DNA of 64,000 nt from Ruminococcus flavefaciens MA2007 (GTDB lineage Bacteria; Bacillota; Clostridia; Oscillospirales; Ruminococcaceae): contig NZ_KK211355.1 of the NCBI RefSeq assembly GCF_000621845.1, positions 62,001 through 126,000 of the forward strand, read 5' to 3'. A program made the translations under genes and the position numbers. The number at the start of each line of letters is the position of its first letter. Positions within the stretch are counted from its first letter, which is position 1. This document shows, one piece after another, positions 4,839 to 56,914 of the stretch. The notes beneath the pieces are model-generated. The model was not told the DNA's origin and made no database searches. It saw only the letters and a list, made by a program, of their open reading frames with translations.

Positions 4839-4859
4839 TTACTGTAGGGAGTCACCCAC

Positions 4860-4995
4860 ATCAGCCCGATGAATAAACGCAGCGATATGAGCATCAGCCC
4901 GATGAATAAACGCAGCGATGTGAGCATCAGCCTGATGAATAAACGCAGCGATGTGAGCATCAGCCTGATGAATAAACGGGGCGATGTGGGCATCG
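4860..4995. repeat. Four tandem copies of a 33-bp repeat
   Basis: Copies begin at 4860, 4893, 4926 and 4959, with a partial fifth at 4992. The unit joins a CATCAGCC-type arm, GATGAATAAACG and CAGCGATGTGAG. Copies differ by one to four bases. The outer ends match the dispersed palindrome family seen at 11265, 14120 and 32790, so this looks like a locally amplified member. No gene is seen here. Confidence 0.85.
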
Positions 4996-5023
4996 CCCCC
5001 TACATATTATAGTCACTAATAAC

Positions 5024-12835: not shown

Positions 12836-12927
12836 GAGTTAAGAGTTGATCGCCGCTGTATGTGATATTCATATTATCGCCGCAGGCGACACCATAACTC
12901 TCAACTCTCAACTTTCAACTCTAAACT
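12836..12927. repeat. Inverted repeat with CAACTCTCAACT-type arms
   Basis: The left arm (AGAGTTAAGAGTTGA) and right arm (CAACTCTCAACTCTCAAC) are simple-sequence inverted repeats around ATCGCCG and CCGCAGGCGA. The same arrangement occurs at 28285-28370 and 37662-37798 with different cores, so this is a dispersed element family. Confidence 0.75.
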
Positions 12928-17609: not shown

Positions 17610-17673
17610 TTGACATAAAAAATTTTATATTATATACTACACATAGCCGAGGGCAGGAAAAATGCTCTCGGCT
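17610..17673 (+). promoter_or_regulatory. Promoter and 5' hairpin of the SGNH hydrolase gene
   Basis: TTGACA (17610-17615) and TATACT (17633-17638), spacer 17. A GCCGAG/CTCGGC hairpin (about 17648-17673) lies at the predicted 5' end of the transcript and has no U tract; it may stabilise the mRNA or stop read-through from GH5. Confidence 0.6.
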
Positions 17674-17702
17674 GTCACAGCAATAAAAAGGAGGATAATT
17701 AC

Positions 17703-19301
17703 ATGAAGAAATTTCTTTCAATGCTGCTTTCCGCAGCTATAGGACTTACAGCTCTTACCTCTGTTTCAGGCGGAGCTTTCAATGAAAAGGCGGCAGCTGC
17801 AGAAAAGGGCGGTATGGTCGTTTTCGGTGACAGCATATCTGTCGGCGTTACAAGAAATGGCAATGTCGAGCATAACTACGGCGAGATATGCGGCGATTAC
17901 CTTGGCTGCAAGGTGAGCAACTACGCAGTTTCGGGAGATAACACCTCTGACCTTCTCAAAGTCATAGACAAGCTCTCTGACGAGCAGAAAAAGAACGTTG
18001 CAAACGCCGAGTACATCGTTATCTCTATCGGCGGAAACGATATAATGCAGTTTGCTTCAAGAAAGCTCATAGATTATGCCGCAGATAAGAACTTCCTCAA
18101 CGACGGCTACACAAAGGACAATCTCCCTGCCGAGCCCTCTGTATCTGACCTGATAAAGGTAGTCAAGTTCAAGGGCGAGGGAAGCCTTGCAGAATATGCT
18201 TCAAAGGGCTTTTCTCAGGCTCTTGAAGTAAACAGCAGGATAAGCAGCGTTGCTACAGACCTGTGCAGCAGCGAGAACGGACACGACGGATATTTTGAAA
18301 AGGTAACTATCCCGAATGTAAAGACTGCTGTGGCAAAGCTCAAGACCATATCTCCTGACGCAAGGATACTGGTGCAGAATATCTACCAGCCTGTTGAGCT
18401 GGAGCAGGCATATATTGATAAGACATACGGCAAGGGCTCATCACAGAATACTATCATCAATTCTTCTGTAAGACCGAGACTTGAAGACGTTATGGCAGGC
18501 TATGACCAGCAGCTCCGTACCATAGACGGTATCGAGGTTGTAGATGTAAAGGCTCTCTTCACATCTACAAATGAAACACTTACCGCAAGCAATCCCGGAC
18601 ACGCAAATTATTTCGTTGATATCCAGACAGGCGGTCTTTCGTCAGCAGACGTTCACCCCAATCAGAAGGGACACGTTGCGATTGCAACAGCTATACTGGC
18701 GCAGATAAACAAGCTCCACGGCGATAACGGACTTCTCCGCAAGACATTCAACAGCTTCAGCGACAAGGACAAGTATCCTGCTATCGCACTTGCCGCCTAT
18801 AACAAGGTTGCAGGCGCTGATCCGACTCTGACTACTACAACGACCTCAACAACAACTACTACAACGACCACAACTACTACAGCAAAGCCAACTACTACCA
18901 CCACAACTACTACAACTACAACAACAAAGAAGCCGACAACTACGACCACAACTTCAACAACGACTACCACCACAAAGAAAACAACAACAACAACTACTAC
19001 TACGGCCACAACTGCGCCTGTTACAACAACTACACAGCCCGTAAAGACTATCGCTCTGGGCGATGTAGACGACAACAAGAACATAAACGCAGTTGACGCT
19101 TCATATGTTCTTGAGGACTACGCAAGGACTTCAACAAATCAGACATCAAAATTCAGCGACGCTCAGAAAAAGGCGGCAGACGTAAACAAGGACAAGAAGA
19201 TAAACGCTGTTGACGCTTCGTATATCCTTTCATACTACGCATACACCGCAGTTACATCGAAGGACGTCAAGAGCTTTGAGGAATTTTTAAAGACAGCATA
19301 A
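17703..19301 (+). CDS. Secreted SGNH/GDSL hydrolase with dockerin
   Basis: A 532-residue cellulosomal esterase candidate. After a signal peptide, the SGNH domain shows S44 in VVFGDSIS, the IGGND block (N112) and D316/H318 in DVHPNQKGH, the complete catalytic set. A Thr-rich linker with Ala/Lys/Pro breaks spans about 375-445. A type I dockerin follows (452-529) with two calcium loops, DVDDNKNINAVDAS and DVNKDKKINAVDAS, sharing the recognition pair AVDAS. The likely role is deacetylation or de-esterification of plant cell-wall polysaccharide in the cellulosome; the exact substrate is unknown. Confidence 0.92.
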   Translation: MKKFLSMLLSAAIGLTALTSVSGGAFNEKAAAAEKGGMVVFGDSISVGVTRNGNVEHNYGEICGDYLGCKVSNYAVSGDNTSDLLKVIDKLSDEQKKNVANAEYIVISIGGNDIMQFASRKLIDYAADKNFLNDGYTKDNLPAEPSVSDLIKVVKFKGEGSLAEYASKGFSQALEVNSRISSVATDLCSSENGHDGYFEKVTIPNVKTAVAKLKTISPDARILVQNIYQPVELEQAYIDKTYGKGSSQNTIINSSVRPRLEDVMAGYDQQLRTIDGIEVVDVKALFTSTNETLTASNPGHANYFVDIQTGGLSSADVHPNQKGHVAIATAILAQINKLHGDNGLLRKTFNSFSDKDKYPAIALAAYNKVAGADPTLTTTTTSTTTTTTTTTTTAKPTTTTTTTTTTTTKKPTTTTTTSTTTTTTKKTTTTTTTTATTAPVTTTTQPVKTIALGDVDDNKNINAVDASYVLEDYARTSTNQTSKFSDAQKKAADVNKDKKINAVDASYILSYYAYTAVTSKDVKSFEEFLKTA

Positions 19302-26903: not shown

Positions 26904-26938
26904 GCCCGTAAGAAGCTGCTTCTTACGGGCGCTTTTTT
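26904..26938 (+). terminator. Terminator of hsp20
   Basis: GCCCGTAAGAAG/CTTCTTACGGGC stem with a 3-base loop, followed by GCTTTTTT. Confidence 0.92.
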
Positions 26939-26939
26939 A

Positions 26940-27305
26940 ATTAGTGATTAGTGCTTAGTGATTAGTAAGTAGTGAGTAGAAAGTAGTGAGTAGTAGGGGC
27001 GGCGTTTCGCCGCCCGCGTATATATGCATTTTTATTTAACGGGCGACGGGACGTCGCCCCTACATGGATTTACGGTCATTTGGGGTGAATATTTAGCTTG
27101 CGGGAGGGCGAGGGCGCCCTCCCCTACAATTTAAACTGCATAAACGCCTTGCGGTGTCATGTTTATAAAATGTGCCGTAAGCGATGTACGATTAACGGTT
27201 CTGACAGATGTGAGCGAGCTTGCGAGCGGCAACGTGGCAAGCGGTCGAGCTGGCTCAGCTCGCGTGGCAAGGGTGCAGCGTCACGCTGCTTTATGCAGGA
27301 TTAAC
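26940..27305. repeat. Block of dispersed repeats between hsp20 and the HAD gene
   Basis: Simple TTAGTGATTAGTG repeats (26940-26990) are followed by the composite palindrome block 26993-27081, which is an inverted copy of 22862-22947, then GGAGGGCG/CGCCCTCC near 27102-27126. A further element (about 27165-27295) with GAGCGAGCTTGCGAGC and GCAGCGTCACGCTGC is an inverted copy of 47708-47800. No gene is seen in this 570-base gap apart from the promoter at its end. Confidence 0.75.
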
Positions 27306-28413: not shown

Positions 28414-30144
28414 ATGAAGAAATTAATGCTGGGAAACGAAGCCTTCGCAAGAGGCTTGTATGAAGCGGGCTGCCGCGTAGTATCGAGCTACCCCGGTACT
28501 CCCTCAACTGAGATAACTGAGGAAGTTGCAAAGTACGACGAGGTCTACGCAGAGTGGGCTCCTAACGAAAAGGTCGCTATGGAGACAGCTCTCGGAGCTT
28601 CTATCGCAGGCGCAAGAAGCTTCTGCGGAATGAAGCACGTTGGTCTCAACGTTGCTGCCGATCCACTCTATACAGCAGGATATACAGGCGTAAACGCAGG
28701 TATGGTCATCGCAGTTGCCGACGATCAGGGAATGCATTCCTCTCAGAACGAGCAGGACAGCCGTCACCACGCTATCGCTTCTAAAGTTCCAATGCTGGAG
28801 CCTTCCGATTCTACAGAATGTAAGGAGTTCGTCAAGCTTGCCTTCGAGCTTTCCGAGAAGTTTGACGCACCGTTCATAGTAAGAATGTCCACAAGAGTTG
28901 CTCACTCACAGAGCATAGTTGAAATGGAGGACAGAAACGACCTCCCTCTCAAGGACTACGAAAAGACACCTAATAAATTCGTTATGATGCCTGCTTACGC
29001 AAAGGGCAGACACGTATTCGTTGAAGAGCGCACAAAGAAGCTCATCGAGTATGCTGAGACAACTCCTCTCAACAGAGTTGAGATATCCGACAAGGCTGAG
29101 TTCGGCGTTATCACAAACGGCGCTGCTTATCAGTACGTCAAGGAGGCTCTCGGCGACAAGGCTTCAGTGCTGAAGCTTGGTATGGTAAATCCTCTCCCTG
29201 TCAAGCTCATTCAGGACTTCGCAAAGAAGTATGAGCAGATATACGTTATCGAGGAGCTTGACGGCATAATCGAGGAGCACTGCCGCAACATCGGCGTGAA
29301 CAACGTAAAGGGCAAGGAGATATTCGGCTATATCGGCGAGCTTCCCCAGTCTGTTATCGCAGAGAAGCTTCTCGGCGAGAAGAAGGACTTCGTGGCTCTC
29401 GAAGATGATATCCCTGTACGTCCCCCTGTAATGTGCGCAGGATGTCCACACAGAGGTCTGTTCTACTGCTTAAAGAAGCTGGGCGTTACAGTATCGGGTG
29501 ATATCGGCTGCTACACTCTCGGAGCTGCCGCACCTCTCAACGCTATCGACACAACAATTTGTATGGGTGCTTCTATTTCAGGTCTCCACGGCTTCAACAA
29601 GGCAAGAGGAGCGGAGTCAGAGCACAAGAGCGTTGCGGTTATCGGTGATTCCACATTCATGCACAGCGGTATGACAGGTCTTGTAAATATCGCTTACAAT
29701 AATTCAAATTCAACAGTTATCATTCTCGATAACTCTATCACAGGTATGACAGGTCATCAGCAGAACCCGACTACAGGTAAGAACCTCAAGGGCGATCCTG
29801 CTGCGGCTGTTAATCTTGAGGAGCTCTGCAAGGCTATCGGTATCAAGCGTGTCCGCGTGACCGATCCTTACAAGCTTGCCGAGACAGAGGCTGCTATCAA
29901 GGAGGAGCTTGCTGCTGACGAGGCTTCGGTAATTATTTCCAGACGTCCCTGCGCACTTCTCAAGTATGTTAAGCACAATCCGCCTGTAAAGGTAAATACA
30001 GACAAGTGTGTAGGCTGCAAGATGTGCATGAAGCTGGGATGTCCTGCTATCTCAATGCGCGACGGCAAGGCAGTAGTTGACCACACTCTCTGCGTAGGCT
30101 GCGGCATATGTCAGGAGCAGTGTAAAGTCGGAGCTATCCAGTAA
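28414..30144 (+). CDS. iorA: Indolepyruvate ferredoxin oxidoreductase, alpha subunit
   Basis: A 576-residue TPP-dependent subunit that, with IorB, interconverts aryl pyruvates and aryl acetyl-CoA using ferredoxin. The N-terminal pyrimidine-binding half (SSYPGTPSTEIT) is followed by the TPP-binding half (DIGCYTLG; GDSTFMHSG; NSITGMTGHQQNP). The C-terminus holds two [4Fe-4S] motifs (CVGCKMCMKLGCP and CVGCGICQEQC). GAAAGGA lies upstream. The beta subunit is 2 kb downstream, separated by three other genes, which is unusual because iorA and iorB are normally adjacent. Confidence 0.95.
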   Translation: MKKLMLGNEAFARGLYEAGCRVVSSYPGTPSTEITEEVAKYDEVYAEWAPNEKVAMETALGASIAGARSFCGMKHVGLNVAADPLYTAGYTGVNAGMVIAVADDQGMHSSQNEQDSRHHAIASKVPMLEPSDSTECKEFVKLAFELSEKFDAPFIVRMSTRVAHSQSIVEMEDRNDLPLKDYEKTPNKFVMMPAYAKGRHVFVEERTKKLIEYAETTPLNRVEISDKAEFGVITNGAAYQYVKEALGDKASVLKLGMVNPLPVKLIQDFAKKYEQIYVIEELDGIIEEHCRNIGVNNVKGKEIFGYIGELPQSVIAEKLLGEKKDFVALEDDIPVRPPVMCAGCPHRGLFYCLKKLGVTVSGDIGCYTLGAAAPLNAIDTTICMGASISGLHGFNKARGAESEHKSVAVIGDSTFMHSGMTGLVNIAYNNSNSTVIILDNSITGMTGHQQNPTTGKNLKGDPAAAVNLEELCKAIGIKRVRVTDPYKLAETEAAIKEELAADEASVIISRRPCALLKYVKHNPPVKVNTDKCVGCKMCMKLGCPAISMRDGKAVVDHTLCVGCGICQEQCKVGAIQ

Positions 30145-30393: not shown

Positions 30394-30621
30394 ATGAAAA
30401 TCAGAAAGATAAGCTGTCCATATTGCAATATACTTATGGAATGCAAAGGAACAAAGCGTATACAACTGGGACGCACAGGCTTTATTATAGGAGATATTGA
30501 CAATCTCTTTTCTGGAGCGCTTACAACAAGCATCTATGAGTGCCCGAGGTGCGGAAAGCTTGAATTTTTCAGATTTAAGAAAACAAAGAGGAAAAAAGAT
30601 GATACAGTTGCCGATATATGA
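30394..30621 (+). CDS. Small zinc-ribbon protein
   Basis: A 75-residue protein with two Cys pairs, CPYC (residues about 7-10) and CPRC (about 49-52), spaced as in a zinc ribbon, and a basic C-terminal tail (KKTKRKKDD). No function can be assigned. ATG 30394 is chosen because translation upstream of it (to 30340) runs into repeat sequence and GGGG lies near the ATG. It overlaps the next gene by 23 bases. Confidence 0.65.
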   Translation: MKIRKISCPYCNILMECKGTKRIQLGRTGFIIGDIDNLFSGALTTSIYECPRCGKLEFFRFKKTKRKKDDTVADI

Positions 30622-30991
30622 GGAGTTCGCCCACTGGCTGGACGATATCCTCGAAAACAATGAAATGCCCGAGGAAACAAAGGCGTTCTGCTTCAACCTC
30701 TATGAGGAGTCCGACGAGGAGCACATCTGCGGCGTTCAGATTATTGCCGCAGGAGAGTACGATCCCGAGGACAAGGACGGTGAATGGGCTTGCGAGGAGG
30801 TCTGGAGCAGTGAGGAGAATATCTTCACAGTTGATACCTCCGACGAGGAAGACACGAGCTGGGCTCACGCACAGGAGCTCATAAAGGAAATGATAGAGGA
30901 ATACCTCAGAAACGGTAAATACTCAGGTATTCTCAGCGGAGCAGGGGCAGTTGCCATAGGCTTCGTTGACGGAGAGCTTGAGATCATTTGA
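30599..30991 (+). CDS. Uncharacterised acidic protein
   Basis: A 130-residue, strongly acidic protein without signal peptide or membrane span. It has long Glu/Asp-rich stretches (YEESDEEHI, EEDTSWAHAQEL) and a Gly-rich end (ILSGAGAVAIGFVDG). I do not recognise it. ATG 30599 has AGAGG 7 bases upstream; the longer frame from 30497 lies inside the zinc-ribbon gene. The overlap with that gene and the short gap to the FUS-like gene suggest one operon with iorA and iorB. Confidence 0.75.
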   Translation: MIQLPIYEEFAHWLDDILENNEMPEETKAFCFNLYEESDEEHICGVQIIAAGEYDPEDKDGEWACEEVWSSEENIFTVDTSDEEDTSWAHAQELIKEMIEEYLRNGKYSGILSGAGAVAIGFVDGELEII

Positions 30992-31017: not shown

Positions 31018-32091
31018 ATGGACGATCTTATGACAGGAGTCGGCAGCAGCGGCGGAATGGACGACATAAGTAATATGAACGAGCTGGCAAAGCAGGCAGA
31101 AGCCGCTTTGCAGCCTCAGAATAACTCTGTTCAGCAGCCTACTGGCTACGGCGCTTCGCAGAACAACTACGGACAGCAGCCTACTGGCTACGGCGCTTCG
31201 CAGAACAACTACGGACAGCAGCCTACGGGCTACGGCGCTTCGCAGAACAGCTACGGACAACAGTCCACGGGCTATGGTGCTTCGCAGAACAGCTACGGAC
31301 AGCAGCCTACTGGCTACGGCGCTTCGCAGAACAGCTACGGACAACAGTCCACGGGCTACGGTACTTCGCAGAACAGCTACGGACAGCAGTCCACGGGCTA
31401 CGGTGCTTCTCAGAACAGCTATGGACAGCGCTCCAATGATTATGGCAGTTCGCAGAGCAACTACAGCGATCCCTACATGAGCGGCAGCTCGGGCTATGAC
31501 AGCTCGTCATCGGGCTACGGCAGTACAGCGGCTTATACATATAACGACTTCGGCGGCAGTGATTCAAAGCTGATACCTGCGCTGAAAGCTTTTCTCGGAG
31601 CAGCTGTAGGCGCTATCCCGGGAGTTATTCTCGTTATTTTTGTTGCAAAGCTGGGCTTTATAGCTTCGATCTGCGGAGCGGTAATGGCTATAGGTATCTT
31701 TGCAGGCTATACCTTTATGACAAAGGATAATGAGCTGGATACTAAGATCGGACTTATCATATGCGGAGCTGTAATGCTTCTCGGTATATATATCGCTGTC
31801 AGGACCTCGTGGGTAATGAATATATCGGACGCCATTAAAGAGGGAATGTCTGCGGGCAAATCTATGCTTGCGGATTCTGAGCTTTCCGAAAGCGATTTAA
31901 ACAGCCTCTATAAGCTGATATATGGCGTTGACGAGCCATCATTCTCTGAGTGTTCGTCGCATTTCAGCGATCTTCTTTCGCGTTTTGAACTGAAAGGCAG
32001 GTTCTTCCTTTCATTCCTCGAAAATCTTGGATTTGCTGTATTGGGCTGCTTTGGCTCGTTTGCTAAATTCGGCGGCGGCAGCAAGTATTAA
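31018..32091 (+). CDS. Membrane protein with FUS-like QQPTGYGASQNNYG repeats
   Basis: A 357-residue protein. Residues about 39-136 are seven tandem copies of a 14-residue unit QQ(P/S)TGYGASQN(N/S)YG plus a diverged eighth, then a Ser/Gly/Tyr-rich stretch to about 180. This composition (Gln, Asn, Gly, Ser, Tyr, almost no charge) closely resembles prion-like low-complexity domains such as that of FUS. Three or four membrane spans follow (about 190-275), then a soluble C-terminal region of about 75 residues. No signal peptide precedes the repeats, so they probably face the cytoplasm. It sits between iorA and iorB. Function unknown. Confidence 0.85.
   Translation: MDDLMTGVGSSGGMDDISNMNELAKQAEAALQPQNNSVQQPTGYGASQNNYGQQPTGYGASQNNYGQQPTGYGASQNSYGQQSTGYGASQNSYGQQPTGYGASQNSYGQQSTGYGTSQNSYGQQSTGYGASQNSYGQRSNDYGSSQSNYSDPYMSGSSGYDSSSSGYGSTAAYTYNDFGGSDSKLIPALKAFLGAAVGAIPGVILVIFVAKLGFIASICGAVMAIGIFAGYTFMTKDNELDTKIGLIICGAVMLLGIYIAVRTSWVMNISDAIKEGMSAGKSMLADSELSESDLNSLYKLIYGVDEPSFSECSSHFSDLLSRFELKGRFFLSFLENLGFAVLGCFGSFAKFGGGSKY
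31132..31467 (+). repeat. In-frame 42-bp tandem repeat, seven copies plus one diverged
   Basis: Units start at 31132, 31174, 31216, 31258, 31300, 31342 and 31384, with a degenerate eighth at 31426. Substitutions alternate between CCTACTGG/CCTACGGG and TCCACGGG types. The period is exactly 14 codons, so copy-number change keeps the frame. Confidence 0.95.
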
Positions 32092-32120: not shown

Positions 32121-32696
32121 ATGGAAACTAAATCAATTATGATAGTCGGCGTCGGCGGACAGGGTTCGCTTCTCGCTTCAAGACTTCTCGGCAATGTGCT
32201 TCTTGCACAGGGCTATGACGTAAAGGTAAGCGAGGTACACGGAATGTCGCAGCGCGGCGGCTCTGTTGTTACATACGTAAAGTACGGCGATAAGGTATAT
32301 TCACCTGTTATTGAAAAGGGCGAGGCAGACGCAGTTATCTCCTTCGAGCTTCTCGAAGCAGCAAGATGTCTCCCTTACCTTAAAAAGGGCGGCAAGCTTA
32401 TCACATCTACACAGCAGATAGATCCTATGCCTGTTATCACAGGTGCTGCAAAGTATCCCGAGAATCTCGTTGAGAAGCTCAAGGCAGCAGGTGCAGAGCT
32501 TGTTGCAGTTGACGCACTGTCACTGGCTGAGCAGGCTGGTACGGCAAAGGCTTCAAACGTAGTTCTCATGGGCGTTCTTGCTTCACGCATGGACTATCCT
32601 GACGAGCTCTGGCAGAAGGCACTGGAGCAGTGCGTACCTCCTAAGTTCCTCGACCTCAACAAGAAGGCTTTTGAGCTCGGCAAAGCAGCTAAGTAA
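32121..32696 (+). CDS. iorB: Indolepyruvate ferredoxin oxidoreductase, beta subunit
   Basis: A 191-residue gamma-type subunit that completes the IorAB enzyme. It starts with the family's IVGVGGQGSLLASRLLG segment, followed by VSEVHGMSQRGGSV, both diagnostic. Length is typical. AAGGAG lies upstream. The gene is separated from iorA by three unrelated genes. Confidence 0.95.
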   Translation: METKSIMIVGVGGQGSLLASRLLGNVLLAQGYDVKVSEVHGMSQRGGSVVTYVKYGDKVYSPVIEKGEADAVISFELLEAARCLPYLKKGGKLITSTQQIDPMPVITGAAKYPENLVEKLKAAGAELVAVDALSLAEQAGTAKASNVVLMGVLASRMDYPDELWQKALEQCVPPKFLDLNKKAFELGKAAK

Positions 32697-32952: not shown

Positions 32953-34260
32953 ATGGAAAAGTATTGGAACAAAGAGATCGAATGTATGCCCCGTGAGGAA
33001 ATGAAAAAGCTTCAGGACAAGCGCCTCGTGGCACAGGTAAAGCACGTTTATGAAAACGTTAAGTATTACCGCGATCTCATGGACGAAAAAGGCGTAAAGC
33101 CCGAGGACATCAAGGGGACTGACGATCTTCACAAGCTGCCGTTCCTCAGCAAGGCTGATCTTCGTGAGGCATATCCCTATGGACTCCTTGCAAAGCCACT
33201 CAGCGAATGTGTAAGGATACACTCCACCAGCGGTACCACAGGCAAGCGCGTCGTTGCTTTCTATACTCAGAACGACGTTGATATGTGGGAGGACTGCTGT
33301 GCGAGAGCTATCACTGCCGCAGGCGGCACTAACGAGGACGTAGTTCAGGTAGCATACGGCTACGGTCTGTTCACAGGCGGTATGGGACTCCACGGCGGCT
33401 CACACAAGGTAGGCTGTCTTACCCTGCCTATGAGCTCAGGCAATACAGAGCGTCAGATACAGTTCATGCGCGACCTCAATGCGACTATACTTTGCTGTAC
33501 TCCGTCATATGCGGCATATCTCGGCGAAACTGTCCGCGATATGGGACTTACTCCCGACGATCTTAACCTCAAGGCAGGTATCTTCGGCGCCGAGCCGTGG
33601 ACTGAGGAAATGCGCCGCAGTATCGAGCAGTCACTGGGTATCAAGGCTTACGACATCTTCGGACTTACAGAGTCCAGCGGTCCCGGCGTTGCATTCGAGT
33701 GCTCTGAGCAGAAGGGTATGCACATCAACGAGGACAACTTTATCCCCGAGATAATCGATCCCGAGACAGGAGAGGTACTCCCCGAGGGCGAGGTAGGCGA
33801 GCTTGTGTTCACAAGCATAACCAAGGAGGCATTCCCGCTTCTTCGCTATCGTACACGCGACCTCTGCAAGCTCACAAGGGGCAAGTGCTCATGCGGACGT
33901 ACTCTCGTAAAAATGGCTAAGCCTATGGGCAGAAGCGATGATATGATGATTATCCGCGGAGTAAACGTATTCCCGTCGCAGATAGAGACTGTTCTCATCG
34001 AGCAGGGCTATTCGCCTAACTACCTTATCGAGGTCGACCGCGTAAACAACACGGATACCCTCGATATCAACGTTGAGATGAACCCCGACCAGTTCTCGGA
34101 CAAGGTAAAGGATATGCAGAAGCAGGAGAGAGACCTTGCTGTTGCTATTAAGACCATGCTGGGAATCAACCCCAAGGTTCACCTTGTATCGCCTAAGTCT
34201 ATCGCAAGAAGCGATGGCAAGGCTGTAAGAGTCATCGACAAGCGCAAGCTTCACGACTAA
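32953..34260 (+). CDS. paaK: Phenylacetate-CoA ligase
   Basis: A 435-residue adenylate-forming enzyme that makes aryl-acetyl-CoA from aryl acetate, ATP and CoA. The AMP-binding loop STSGTTGKR is at 91-99; later AYDIFGLTESSGPG and the C-terminal GRSDDMMIIRGVNVFP and KAVRVIDKR segments are characteristic of PaaK. GGAG precedes the ATG. Placement beside iorAB and a double-ACT protein is the usual arrangement for anaerobic aryl-acetate metabolism. Confidence 0.95.
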   Translation: MEKYWNKEIECMPREEMKKLQDKRLVAQVKHVYENVKYYRDLMDEKGVKPEDIKGTDDLHKLPFLSKADLREAYPYGLLAKPLSECVRIHSTSGTTGKRVVAFYTQNDVDMWEDCCARAITAAGGTNEDVVQVAYGYGLFTGGMGLHGGSHKVGCLTLPMSSGNTERQIQFMRDLNATILCCTPSYAAYLGETVRDMGLTPDDLNLKAGIFGAEPWTEEMRRSIEQSLGIKAYDIFGLTESSGPGVAFECSEQKGMHINEDNFIPEIIDPETGEVLPEGEVGELVFTSITKEAFPLLRYRTRDLCKLTRGKCSCGRTLVKMAKPMGRSDDMMIIRGVNVFPSQIETVLIEQGYSPNYLIEVDRVNNTDTLDINVEMNPDQFSDKVKDMQKQERDLAVAIKTMLGINPKVHLVSPKSIARSDGKAVRVIDKRKLHD

Positions 34261-34698: not shown

Positions 34699-35133
34699 AT
34701 GTCAAACGTAAGACAGATCTCAGTTTTTGTAGATAATATGCCAAATCAGGCGGCAGGCGTTATGAGGATAATCAAGGAGAAGGGTATCAACCTGAGAGCC
34801 CTCAGTCTTGCTGATACTGCTGATTTCGGAATAATCAGGCTCATTGCCAATGATACCGAAAAGACAGTGGATATACTGAGAGCGGCATCATACGCAGTAA
34901 ATGTAACAGAGGTGCTGGCAATTTCCATTCCTGATACACCGGGACAGCTCAGCCGTGTGCTGGACGTACTCGGTCAGGACAATGTAAATGTTGAGTATAT
35001 GTACTCGTTCCTCGGTACCTCAGACAGGGCTGTATCCTTCGTTATCCGTGTTGACGACAACGCTCAGGCTTCTGAAGCGCTCAACAGGGGCGGTATTATT
35101 CAGCTTACCGAAAATGATATTGCTGAAATGTAA
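34699..35133 (+). CDS. Tandem ACT-domain protein
   Basis: A 144-residue protein made of two ACT domains (about 5-66 and 70-138), the amino-acid-binding regulatory fold. The second begins AISIPDTPGQLSRVLDVL, a canonical ACT strand-helix. Such stand-alone proteins often lie beside iorAB/paaK and are thought to sense aromatic amino acids. AAAGGAGG is 8-9 bases upstream. Confidence 0.88.
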   Translation: MSNVRQISVFVDNMPNQAAGVMRIIKEKGINLRALSLADTADFGIIRLIANDTEKTVDILRAASYAVNVTEVLAISIPDTPGQLSRVLDVLGQDNVNVEYMYSFLGTSDRAVSFVIRVDDNAQASEALNRGGIIQLTENDIAEM

Positions 35134-37661: not shown

Positions 37662-37798
37662 AGTTGAGAGTTGAAAGTGGAGAGTTGAGAGTTAAGGGTG
37701 TGACCTGTCGGTCACGTATCTGAATTTTTTTAATCTGTTCGCGTAAGCGAACACTGCAACTCTCAATTCTCAACTCTAAACTCTCAACTTCAAGAATA
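37662..37798. repeat. Inverted repeat with GTTGAGAGTTGA/CAACTCTCAA arms
   Basis: AGTTGAGAGTTGAAAGT faces CAACTCTCAATTCTCAACTC around a core containing GTGACC/GGTCAC and TTCGCGTAAGCGAA hairpins. Same family as 12836 and 28285. Confidence 0.8.
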
Positions 37799-48861: not shown

Positions 48862-48995
48862 AAATAATAAAGAATAGGGAATAAATAAGAAATAAAAATC
48901 ATGTTGTCCGCTTCACGGACATATTAAAAATAATATCGCCGAAAGGCGATACCAATATTATTCTTTATTCATTATTCTTTCTTCTTTATTATTTT
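48862..48995. repeat. Inverted repeat with AATAATAAAGAAT-type arms
   Basis: GAATAATAAAGAATAGGGAA faces TTCTTTATTCATTATTCTTT around cores CCGCTTCACGG and TATCGCCGAAAGGCGATA. It has the same design as the CAACTCTCAACT-armed elements but different arm sequence. Confidence 0.75.
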
Positions 48996-54174: not shown

Positions 54175-54352
54175 TTGACACAAAGTTAAAGGTGGGCTAT
54201 AATTATCTTGAAAATAGTTTGAGAATTGTGTGTAGTCTGCGTGAAAATACACACAGTGTACGAAGTATTTTCGTATGCGCTCCCCGAAACATAGCTTTCA
54301 GGGGGCAATTAACCATTTTTTAAACCTATACTACAGAGAGGGGTAAAAAACA
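54175..54352 (+). promoter_or_regulatory. Promoter and structured leader of the GH48 gene
   Basis: TTGACA (54175-54180) and TATAAT (54198-54203), spacer 17. The leader of about 145 bases holds a GTGTGTA/TACACAC hairpin (54229-54255) and a CCCC/GGGG hairpin (about 54281-54306). The preceding 53850-54170 is AT-rich with no recognised gene. Confidence 0.65.
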
Positions 54353-56914
54353 ATGATAAGCAAAAAGAATAAGGCTCTCGCAGCAGGCATTCTTGCTGCT
54401 GCAATGTCTGCTTCAGCAGTAATGCCCGCTATGGCATCAGCTGCTCCTACAGCAGAGGCTGCAAAGTCTAACGGCTCTTACAAAGAGATGTTCTCATCAC
54501 TTTATGATGACGTTATTACAAACGGTGTTCAGAACGGATATCTCAGCTCACAGACTAACGGTTCGGGCTTCGGAATCCCTTACCATTCAGTAGAGACCTT
54601 CATCGTTGAGGCTCCTGACTACGGTCACGAGACAACTTCTGAGGCTATGTCTTACATCGTTTGGATGGCAGCTATGCATGATGTTCTCGAAGGATCAGGC
54701 ACAGCAAGCGATATCAAGAAGGCTTGGAACACAATGGAGGCTATGATCCCTGGCTGGTCAAAGGCTTCAGGCAGAACAGATGTTAAGTACGATACAATCT
54801 GGAAGCAGTCAAGACTCAAGGCTGATACAGCTGAAGAGTGCGACCTCCCAAGTGAGTATCCTTCAAAGCAGCCAGGCGTTGACGCTATCAACCCAATGTT
54901 CGATACATTCAAGTCTGCATACGGCAGCGATAACGGTTACTATCTCATGAACTGGCTCGCTGACGTTGATGACTGGTATGGTTTCGGCGGAAGCGGTAAG
55001 TTCACATTTATCAACACCTTCCAGAGAGGTGAGCAGGAGTCTTGTTTCGAGACTGTTCCGGCTCCTTGCCTTGAGGAACTCAAGTACGGTATGGACAGCC
55101 CGAGCGAGAGTGCCGGCAACGGTATCAAGGCTATCTTCAACGGTATCGGCAAGGTACCAAAGCAGTACTCATTCACAAACGCTCCTGACGCTGAGGATCG
55201 TGCTATCCAGGCTATCTACTTCGCTAACCAGAACGGCGTAGACTGCGGCGAGATCTCAGGTCTTGCAGGTAAGATGGGTGACCAGTGCCGTAACGATATG
55301 TTCGATAAGTACTACAAGGCTATCGCTAAGGATACAAAGCTCACATCTGAGTCAGCAGGCATGGATTCCAAGCACTATCTCATGGCTTGGTACACAGCTT
55401 GGGGCGGAGCTCTCGGCAACTATGACTGGGCTTGGCAGATCGGCTGCTCACACTCACATCAGTTCTATCAGAATCCTCTCGCTGCTTACGCTCTTCTCTA
55501 TGATGAGGGCATCAACAGCGGTATGAAGGCTAAGGATGCTGACACAGACTATAAGGAGTCTCTCAAGCGTCAGATCGAAATGTATCAGTGGCTCCAGTCT
55601 AAGGACGGTCCTTTCGCTGGTGGTTGTACAAACAGCTGGAGAGGTCGTTATGAGACATATCCTTCAGGCCACGCTACATTCTATGAGATGGCTTACGTTC
55701 CACATCCTGTATACGCAGATCCTGGTTCAAACCACTGGATCGGTAACCAGGTATGGTCAACACAGCGTCTCTGCGAGCTCTATTACTATGTAACCAAGAA
55801 TGGTGACAAGAGCGGTCAGACATACGGCGGCCTCAAGCTCGACGAGGCTCTTGACAAGCTCCTTGAGAGATGGATCAATTGGTTCGAGGAAAATACTCAC
55901 TTCGACTATGTAGATGCAGAGGGCAATAAGTACAGCTATTGTATCCCTTCAACTCTTGACTGGGGTTCAAGCGATACAGACTATACTTGCACACCTGATA
56001 CATGGACAGGTACATACAGCGAGAGTGCTAACCAGAAGCTCACCTGCAAGATCGGCGGCTATGGTCAGGGAGACGTTGGATGCGTATCCTCACTCTGTAA
56101 TACACTTATCTACTACGCAAAGGCTAAGGGCGTAGATCCTAAGTACGCTTCTGAGGAAGGCACATCTGTTGCTGAAAAGGGTCTCTACCTTGCTAACAGA
56201 CTCCTCTCTGCTCAGTATAATCAGGGTCGTGACGATATCGGTCTCACATTTACAGACAGCAACCCAAGCCTCAAGAGAGTATTCCACGAGGAAGTTTATA
56301 TTCCTTCAGGATACAGCGGAACAATGCCTGACGGTTCTAAGCTCGAGAGCAACGCAACATTCTCATCTATCCGTAAGAACTACGAGAAGGATGAGATGTG
56401 GCAGAAGGCTCAGAAGTACGACAAGGGCGAAGGCGAGGATAACAACGGCGACGGAACAGTTGATATCAAGGACTTCCAGTTCCAGTATCACAGATTCTGG
56501 CACGCTGGTGACGCTATCGTTGCTTACGGTACAATGGCACTTCTCTATCCTGAGGTTAAGCCACTTCCTGATTCTGATGACGTTACAACAACTACAACAA
56601 CTACAACAACAAGCACAACAACTACAAGCGTAACAACAACTACAACAGTAAGCAGCCCTGACGTTCAGGCTGAGCTCTGGGGCGATGCTAACTGCGACAG
56701 CGATGTTGATATGTCAGACGTAGTTCTCATCATGCAGAACCTTGCTAACCCGAACAAGTACGGTCTCAACGGTTCTGATGACAAGCACATCACAGCTAAG
56801 GGCCTTGCTAATGCAGACGTTGCTTCACATGGTGACGGCGTAACTGCTAACGATGCTCTCCGCATTCAGGAGTACCTCCTCAAGAAGGTTTCAACTCTTG
56901 ATCCTACTAAGTAA
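54353..56914 (+). CDS. GH48 exoglucanase with dockerin
   Basis: An 853-residue reducing-end cellobiohydrolase, the key processive cellulase of cellulosomes. A signal peptide ends near residue 31-36. The GH48 domain spans about 40-710; HETTSEAMSY (92-101) contains the probable catalytic acid E97, and ADVDDWYGFGG, WGGALGNYDWAWQIG are family segments. A short Thr-rich linker (about 743-768) leads to a dockerin (775-848): a first loop D-N-D-D pattern with recognition pair at MSDVV, a spacer, then DGVTANDALRIQ. The dockerin differs clearly from that of the SGNH hydrolase. Biased codon use implies high expression. Confidence 0.97.
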   Translation: MISKKNKALAAGILAAAMSASAVMPAMASAAPTAEAAKSNGSYKEMFSSLYDDVITNGVQNGYLSSQTNGSGFGIPYHSVETFIVEAPDYGHETTSEAMSYIVWMAAMHDVLEGSGTASDIKKAWNTMEAMIPGWSKASGRTDVKYDTIWKQSRLKADTAEECDLPSEYPSKQPGVDAINPMFDTFKSAYGSDNGYYLMNWLADVDDWYGFGGSGKFTFINTFQRGEQESCFETVPAPCLEELKYGMDSPSESAGNGIKAIFNGIGKVPKQYSFTNAPDAEDRAIQAIYFANQNGVDCGEISGLAGKMGDQCRNDMFDKYYKAIAKDTKLTSESAGMDSKHYLMAWYTAWGGALGNYDWAWQIGCSHSHQFYQNPLAAYALLYDEGINSGMKAKDADTDYKESLKRQIEMYQWLQSKDGPFAGGCTNSWRGRYETYPSGHATFYEMAYVPHPVYADPGSNHWIGNQVWSTQRLCELYYYVTKNGDKSGQTYGGLKLDEALDKLLERWINWFEENTHFDYVDAEGNKYSYCIPSTLDWGSSDTDYTCTPDTWTGTYSESANQKLTCKIGGYGQGDVGCVSSLCNTLIYYAKAKGVDPKYASEEGTSVAEKGLYLANRLLSAQYNQGRDDIGLTFTDSNPSLKRVFHEEVYIPSGYSGTMPDGSKLESNATFSSIRKNYEKDEMWQKAQKYDKGEGEDNNGDGTVDIKDFQFQYHRFWHAGDAIVAYGTMALLYPEVKPLPDSDDVTTTTTTTTTSTTTTSVTTTTTVSSPDVQAELWGDANCDSDVDMSDVVLIMQNLANPNKYGLNGSDDKHITAKGLANADVASHGDGVTANDALRIQEYLLKKVSTLDPTK

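Follow-up and report, generated by a model that had tools for sequence, protein, structure and literature searches.

Why should a bacterial membrane protein, encoded between the genes for the two subunits of indolepyruvate ferredoxin oxidoreductase, carry a tail that reads like the low-complexity domain of FUS, and what might such a tail do? The question is raised by one gene in a 64,000-nucleotide stretch of Ruminococcus flavefaciens MA2007 (contig NZ_KK211355.1, positions 62,001 to 126,000; this whole stretch is called the window here). The original prediction for this gene was that its tail, tethered at the membrane beside the oxidoreductase, could organise a condensate or scaffold. The setting of the gene is as follows, with positions numbered from the first nucleotide of the window.

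28414–30144, + strand: iorA, indolepyruvate ferredoxin oxidoreductase alpha (TIGR03336, 725.5 bits, above cut-off)
30394–30621, + strand: small zinc-ribbon-like ORF (CPYC...CPRC), with an internal ATG chosen as start; similar ORFs lie in this interval elsewhere, e.g. in L116
30599–30991, + strand: orf131, an acidic 130-residue protein and near-constant resident of the iorA–iorB interval
31018–32091, + strand: 357-residue membrane protein with an N-terminal repeat tail (ATG start; clade orthologues)
32121–32696, + strand: iorB, indolepyruvate oxidoreductase beta (NF005325, 280.6 bits, above cut-off)
32953–34260, + strand: phenylacetate-CoA ligase-like gene (paaK; 536.8 bits, below the TIGR02155 cut-off of 646.3)
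34699–35133, + strand: paired ACT-domain protein (PF19571, above cut-off)

The protein encoded at 31018–32091 is itself made up of five parts.

31018–31107, + strand: conserved N-terminal cap, residues 1–30 (MDDLM...NELAKQAEAA), recognised by pairwise identity, with a short helix at residues 20–29 in the model
31132–31425, + strand: seven 42-bp units encoding 14-residue repeats, residues 39–136 (Tandem Repeats Finder and in-register reading)
31426–31467, + strand: diverged eighth unit, residues 137–150 (in-register reading)
31468–31566, + strand: Ser/Tyr/Gly-rich linker, residues 151–183, seen in the sequence, with pLDDT below 50 up to residue 182
31567–32088, + strand: four-helix membrane domain of an unnamed family (profile matches and model)

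Tandem Repeats Finder, applied to the window DNA, reported a 42-bp unit in 7.1 copies with 91% matches at 31132–31429. Consistent with this, in-register reading of the protein from residue 39 gave seven units of the form QQ(P/S)TGYG(A/T)SQN(N/S)YG, followed by an eighth, diverged unit, QRSNDYGSSQSNYS, so that the predicted arrangement of seven near-perfect 14-residue repeats and a diverged eighth was borne out. No Asp, Glu, Lys or Arg occurs across residues 29–137; the first charge after this stretch is R138, and six further charges follow by residue 184. The 99 residues from 39 to 137 comprise 22 Gln, 21 Gly, 15 Ser, 14 Tyr, 9 Asn, 8 Thr, 6 Ala and 4 Pro, and 13 (G/S)Y(G/S) motifs are found among the 21 Tyr of residues 1–180. 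In the predicted structure the repeats have a pLDDT of about 30 and zero secondary structure. The low-charge, Gln/Asn/Gly/Ser/Tyr-rich stretch that had been proposed is therefore present, and it is disordered in the model. The classical cut-off for a Q/N-rich prion-like domain is at least 30 Gln plus Asn in 80 residues, and the window protein, which peaks at 28 per 80, falls below it. As for the membrane spans, three or four of which had been anticipated after the repeats, the model contains four helices (residues 185–209, 213–234, 242–284 and 326–352), all of them after residue 184. The modelled helix of the cap (residues 20–29) is of low confidence. The window protein matched no Pfam family at E 0.01, and no Pfam or NCBIfam model scored it above cut-off.

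Tandem repeats of other kinds occur elsewhere in the window. Three 7-bp arrays (12896–12927, 37662–37693 and 37757–37793) have the unit AACTCTC in common, up to rotation and strand, and the second and third of these are on opposite strands between 4-alpha-glucanotransferase and phosphorylase genes. Two further 7-bp arrays, at 26938–26995 and 48958–48994, have the units TAGTGAG and TTATTCT. A 33-bp repeat in 4.3 copies lies at 4859–4998, with no evident coding role, and ACA/CAA-rich tandem repeats are present in two cellulosome-type genes, encoding a GDSL lipase with a dockerin (17619–19298) and a GH48 protein (54347–56911).

The membrane domain was matched at E 0.01 in 61 of 125 genomes of the genus, leaving 64 without a match, in a collection that holds one genome per species. 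The relatives include R. flavefaciens 007c (L005) and a Ruminococcus MAG from sheep rectum (L006). In an alignment of 66 rows, which omits the ORFs of L059, L068 and L071 (masked) and the duplicates L084 and L094, the residues G17, P20 and G21 of a GxxPG motif are invariant, and the window protein fits the profile. When the 66 members were searched singly against Pfam, only weak, scattered matches were obtained. In three genomes (L072, L073 and L074) a second copy of the membrane gene stands in tandem, without a regular repeat array. The 66-row profile also matched 27 genomes in a sample of 197 from the bacterial family, 2 of the 27 belonging to the genus of the window. The relatives in other genera of the same bacterial family share the membrane domain by profile search, but differ in what precedes it: a Cys4 motif (C..C...C..C) lies ahead of the membrane helices in 13 of 18 such relatives (18 having been fetched from the 25 outside-genus genomes that matched), whereas it occurs in 0 of 71 ORFs from the window's genus. 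The Cys4 module is a trait of part of this unnamed four-helix family and not of all its members.

The place of this module gives an indication of the side of the membrane on which the tail lies. Zinc-ribbon-like modules are expected in the cytosol, and since the tail of the window protein occupies the place of the Cys4 module, it should be cytosolic too. Averaged over the 66 rows, Lys/Arg minus Asp/Glu is +0.75 for the N segment, +1.0 for the two-residue L1, +0.8 for L2, about −4.8 for the long L3 and +2.0 for the C segment. These net charges agree weakly with an N-terminus in the cytosol, the counts of membrane-near Lys/Arg alone being nearly balanced between the two sides (about 5.4 versus 5.1). 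No signal peptide or wall-anchoring motif was evident by eye in the window protein. Judged from such sequence features, the N-terminus and its tail are most likely in the cytosol.

The genes iorA and iorB are each present in 122 of the 125 genomes, and in 109 genomes they lie on one contig and strand, with a gap between them that is always at least 407 bp. The membrane domain falls inside this interval in 40 of the 109, the other 69 having no copy there, and 18 of the 66 membrane-domain rows come from stretches in which no ior gene was found. Many ior-linked loci share one gene order: HAD hydrolase, iorA, orf131, the repeat-tail-family gene, iorB, phenylacetate-CoA ligase-like gene, ACT protein and zinc-ribbon protein. 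The location originally given, between iorA and iorB, thus stands for the window and recurs in those 40 genomes, but the gene is not adjacent to iorA, since orf131 (30599–30991) intervenes, and part of the family resides away from ior. Forty of the 69 intervals without the membrane domain were fetched. In 39 of them orf131 was found, the exception being L128, and one (L134) contained a fragment of the membrane domain; the other genes encountered were zinc-ribbon ORFs, one- or two-helix proteins, a lipoprotein-like repeat protein (L121), which we take to be PASTA-like, and a short multi-helix protein (L119). Because many fetched intervals hold other small genes, and orf131 is there in 39 of 40, the iorA–iorB interval accommodates varying accessory genes, only orf131 being nearly always there. 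The longer ORF containing orf131 matched no Pfam family at E 0.01.

The gene can be missing even in very close relatives. Eighteen of the 20 genomes with an IorA at least 97% identical to that of the window keep the repeat-tail gene (G026 being included by a partial IorA), and G020 and G075 are without it. In G020, where IorA is 100% identical, orf131 is followed by iorB 26 bp on with no trace of the gene, and a search for it elsewhere in that genome at E 0.01 gave no match. An obligate subunit or maturation factor of IorAB was considered and rejected, iorA and iorB being present in 122 of 125 genomes against 61 of 125 for the membrane domain and 40 of 109 for its presence at ior. With no copy at ior in 69 of 109 genomes and no match anywhere in 64 of 125, the window protein is probably not an obligatory component of IorAB, and its link to the enzyme is positional only. 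From the gene names, the pathway of the locus is probably an exchange of aromatic 2-oxoacids and arylacetates. Two papers provide the metabolic background, namely that in the rumen Phe can derive from phenylacetate (PMC7356843) and that indolepyruvate is converted by OFOR enzymes of gut acetogens (PMC13290082).

Across the membrane-domain proteins, the length of the tail, measured from the upstream stop and so in some cases including residues ahead of the start codon, ranges from 6–7 residues (L040, L041) to 639 (L069, 3049–5550), the longest consisting of Lys/Glu/Ala/Pro-rich repeats that take the place of the Tyr repeats. Tyr-repeat tails, labelled by hand, are found in 14 of the 66 rows, and 13 of these 14 are within one 21-row clade (SH-aLRT 99 in a 'quick' tree). 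The remaining row, L039, has a different unit and is distant in the tree, its exact place being unsure because of its long branch. The original prediction was to weaken if most strains were without the repeats, and this is largely what the relatives show: the repeat region is not widely kept, some tails are reduced to 6–7 residues, and the species with an identical IorA lacks the gene. The arrays turn over, with 3 to 8 in-register units in seven arrays and three identical consecutive units in G059.

The sequence of the unit varies from species to species, but among 46 units chosen by a QQ or QR start an aromatic residue is found at place 6 in 46 and at place 13 in 43, and clade tails with differing units have little charge. 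In the 39 in-register units of the seven arrays, the Tyr columns have 7 synonymous and 1 non-synonymous minimal changes, the latter being Tyr to Phe, against 23 and 30 in seven freer columns (one-sided Fisher p = 0.023, a test that covers 39 of the 46 units). When four terminal units and two short arrays are added, the 46-unit count becomes 8 synonymous and 5 non-synonymous in the Tyr columns and about 31 and 50 elsewhere, counts that carry no significance test, and the diverged terminal units of G013, G019, G069 and G001 are outside both counts. Because of this 8 to 5 ratio and the uncounted terminal units, conservation of the Tyr columns is to be taken as a lead and not as proof, resting as it does partly on the units left out.

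The two ends of the protein are better kept than its middle. Among 11 clade members, mean pairwise identity is 0.50 over the first 36 residues and 0.51 over the last 172. Six further members also keep MDDLM and have a helix-like stretch later on; here the cap scores 0.51 against 0.66 for the membrane domain. Together the two sets cover 17 of the 21 rows in the clade, leaving aside L087 and three second copies. The cap is also kept in L083, which has one unit, and in L091, which has none. This indicates that the Tyr-sticker array is not needed for the role of the cap.

Two conserved ends with an arm of changing length between them suggest a tether that presents the cap to a cytosolic partner. 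The explanation that we favour, tentatively and with a probability of about 0.45, is that the window protein is a cytosolic, membrane-anchored flexible arm presenting its conserved N-terminal cap, with the tyrosines acting as weak stickers. It would be an integral membrane protein of the four-helix family with its N-terminus in the cytosol, in the order cap, variable disordered repeat arm and membrane domain, and the arm would allow the cap to reach its partner. From the pattern of Tyr, the arm would seem to engage in weak contacts as well; regularly spaced tyrosines may add multivalent self- or cross-contacts that help to cluster copies of the protein in the membrane. Given the operon position, the aromatic 2-oxoacid pathway (IorAB, the PaaK-like ligase and the ACT protein) would be the first place to seek the partner.

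The strongest rival to this tether model is mostly neutral repeat expansion, whereby a 42-bp unit slips in replication at a position tolerant of any disordered sequence. It is an account that we regard as possible, if on the whole unlikely, and it fits well with the spread of 3 to 8 units over seven arrays, with the identical successive units of G059, and with the finding that the same position can be filled by Lys/Glu/Ala/Pro repeats (L069), by other Tyr repeats (L039) or by 6–7 residues. It does not readily explain why changes in the Tyr columns are mostly synonymous (in 39 units, and limited by those omitted), nor why aromatics at two places and a low charge persist when the units themselves differ. 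The idea of a membrane-tethered condensate scaffold, in which the tail would phase-separate under the membrane and concentrate IorAB, PaaK and ferredoxin, can draw on Tyr and Gln fractions near those given for FUS-LC, on the Tyr-repeat label of 13 of the 21 clade rows, on the operon position, and on a bacterial membrane transporter, Rv1747, said in a review to phase-separate. Against it stand the 69 of 109 genomes that have iorA and iorB with no copy between them, the absence of the gene beside an identical IorA in G020, the 18 of 66 rows away from ior, the purely positional link to IorAB and the shortness of the arrays, that of the window being moreover free of Arg until its eighth unit. Such a condensate around IorAB may exist, but the sequences do not support it; because the gene or its repeats are missing in many relatives this reading is weakened, and we consider it improbable.

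Two further accounts place the tail in other roles. An extracytoplasmic, wall-spanning linker, named beforehand as a finding that would count against a condensate, is in keeping with the often cell-surface location of predicted prion-like proteins in bacteria (PMC4606120), but the Cys4 motifs at the equivalent place in relatives, the mildly N-in net charge and the lack of a signal peptide or wall anchor evident by eye all favour the cytosol, if indirectly, and make this linker very improbable. The 21 Tyr within residues 1–180 could alternatively form a phosphorylation platform. Bacterial tyrosine kinases do modify Tyr clusters; in the window protein most Tyr stand in G/S-Y-G and have few acidic residues nearby, and a platform of this type is the least credible of the explanations considered.

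If such tails were to cluster, the protein would be a bacterial example of a FET-like arm, one that lies outside RNA biology. An extension that we judge to be a long shot would be a natural bacterial, membrane-tethered analogue of FET domains: Tyr sticker-and-spacer arms, occupying the Cys4 place of the relatives and probably of at least two origins (the R. flavefaciens-like clade and L039), would form lateral membrane condensates and recruit ferredoxin-linked enzymes of aromatic amino acids via the cap. Whatever its role, the family includes orthologues that carry anything from zero to eight or nine Tyr units on one conserved anchor, a ready-made series for comparing the effects of sticker number with no need of engineered variants. 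Moreover, the iorA–iorB interval, with orf131 almost always in it, is an unusual and testable feature of aromatic metabolism in Ruminococcus.

The likeness to FUS that had been proposed holds for composition. The repeats of the window protein are 14% Tyr and 22% Gln, close to the 24 Tyr and 37 Gln per 163 residues given for FUS-LC (PMC10643395), and like the FUS/FET prion-like domains the tail is Gly/Ser-rich, almost uncharged and predicted to be disordered. It differs from them in its near-perfect 14-residue tandem register, and in being joined to a bacterial four-helix membrane domain with no further Pfam domain at E 0.01. A PDB sequence search returned one chain, from a T-cell receptor (E 0.42), and no FUS chain, composition and bias filters limiting such a search; the resemblance is one of make-up only. 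No title on the window protein, its repeat or a membrane protein in a Ruminococcus ior operon was found among the matches listed from open-licence PMC; one survey names Ruminococcus as one of the Firmicutes that have prion-like sequences (PMC12322145).

Closer to home, a search of this genome with the tail at E 10 found one other protein, of the DUF4190 type (E 1.7e-5), compositional filters perhaps hiding more. Some DUF4190 proteins likewise have a Tyr/Asn/Gln-rich (N/Q/Y/P/G-rich) tail ahead of a small membrane domain, that of the relative in this genome (L187) being 128 residues long. Among 30 DUF4190 loci an ORF with a tail was found in 21 and none in 9 by a hydropathy rule, several of the tails not being Tyr-rich. 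The membrane domain is, however, of another family: PF13828 did not match the window protein at E 0.01, and is absent from the 25 families displayed for the weak, scattered Pfam matches of the 66 membrane-domain members.

Among bacterial proteins known by description, the prion-like domain of Rho is reported to show sporadic conservation (PMC6400439), as does the repeat tail of the window protein. Rv1747 of Mycobacterium tuberculosis, a membrane ABC transporter module regulated by Ser/Thr kinases and phase-separating according to a review, differs from the window protein in being such a transporter under such kinases, and the two are likened by description and not by sequence; it nevertheless provides a precedent for a phase-separating disordered region on a bacterial membrane protein.
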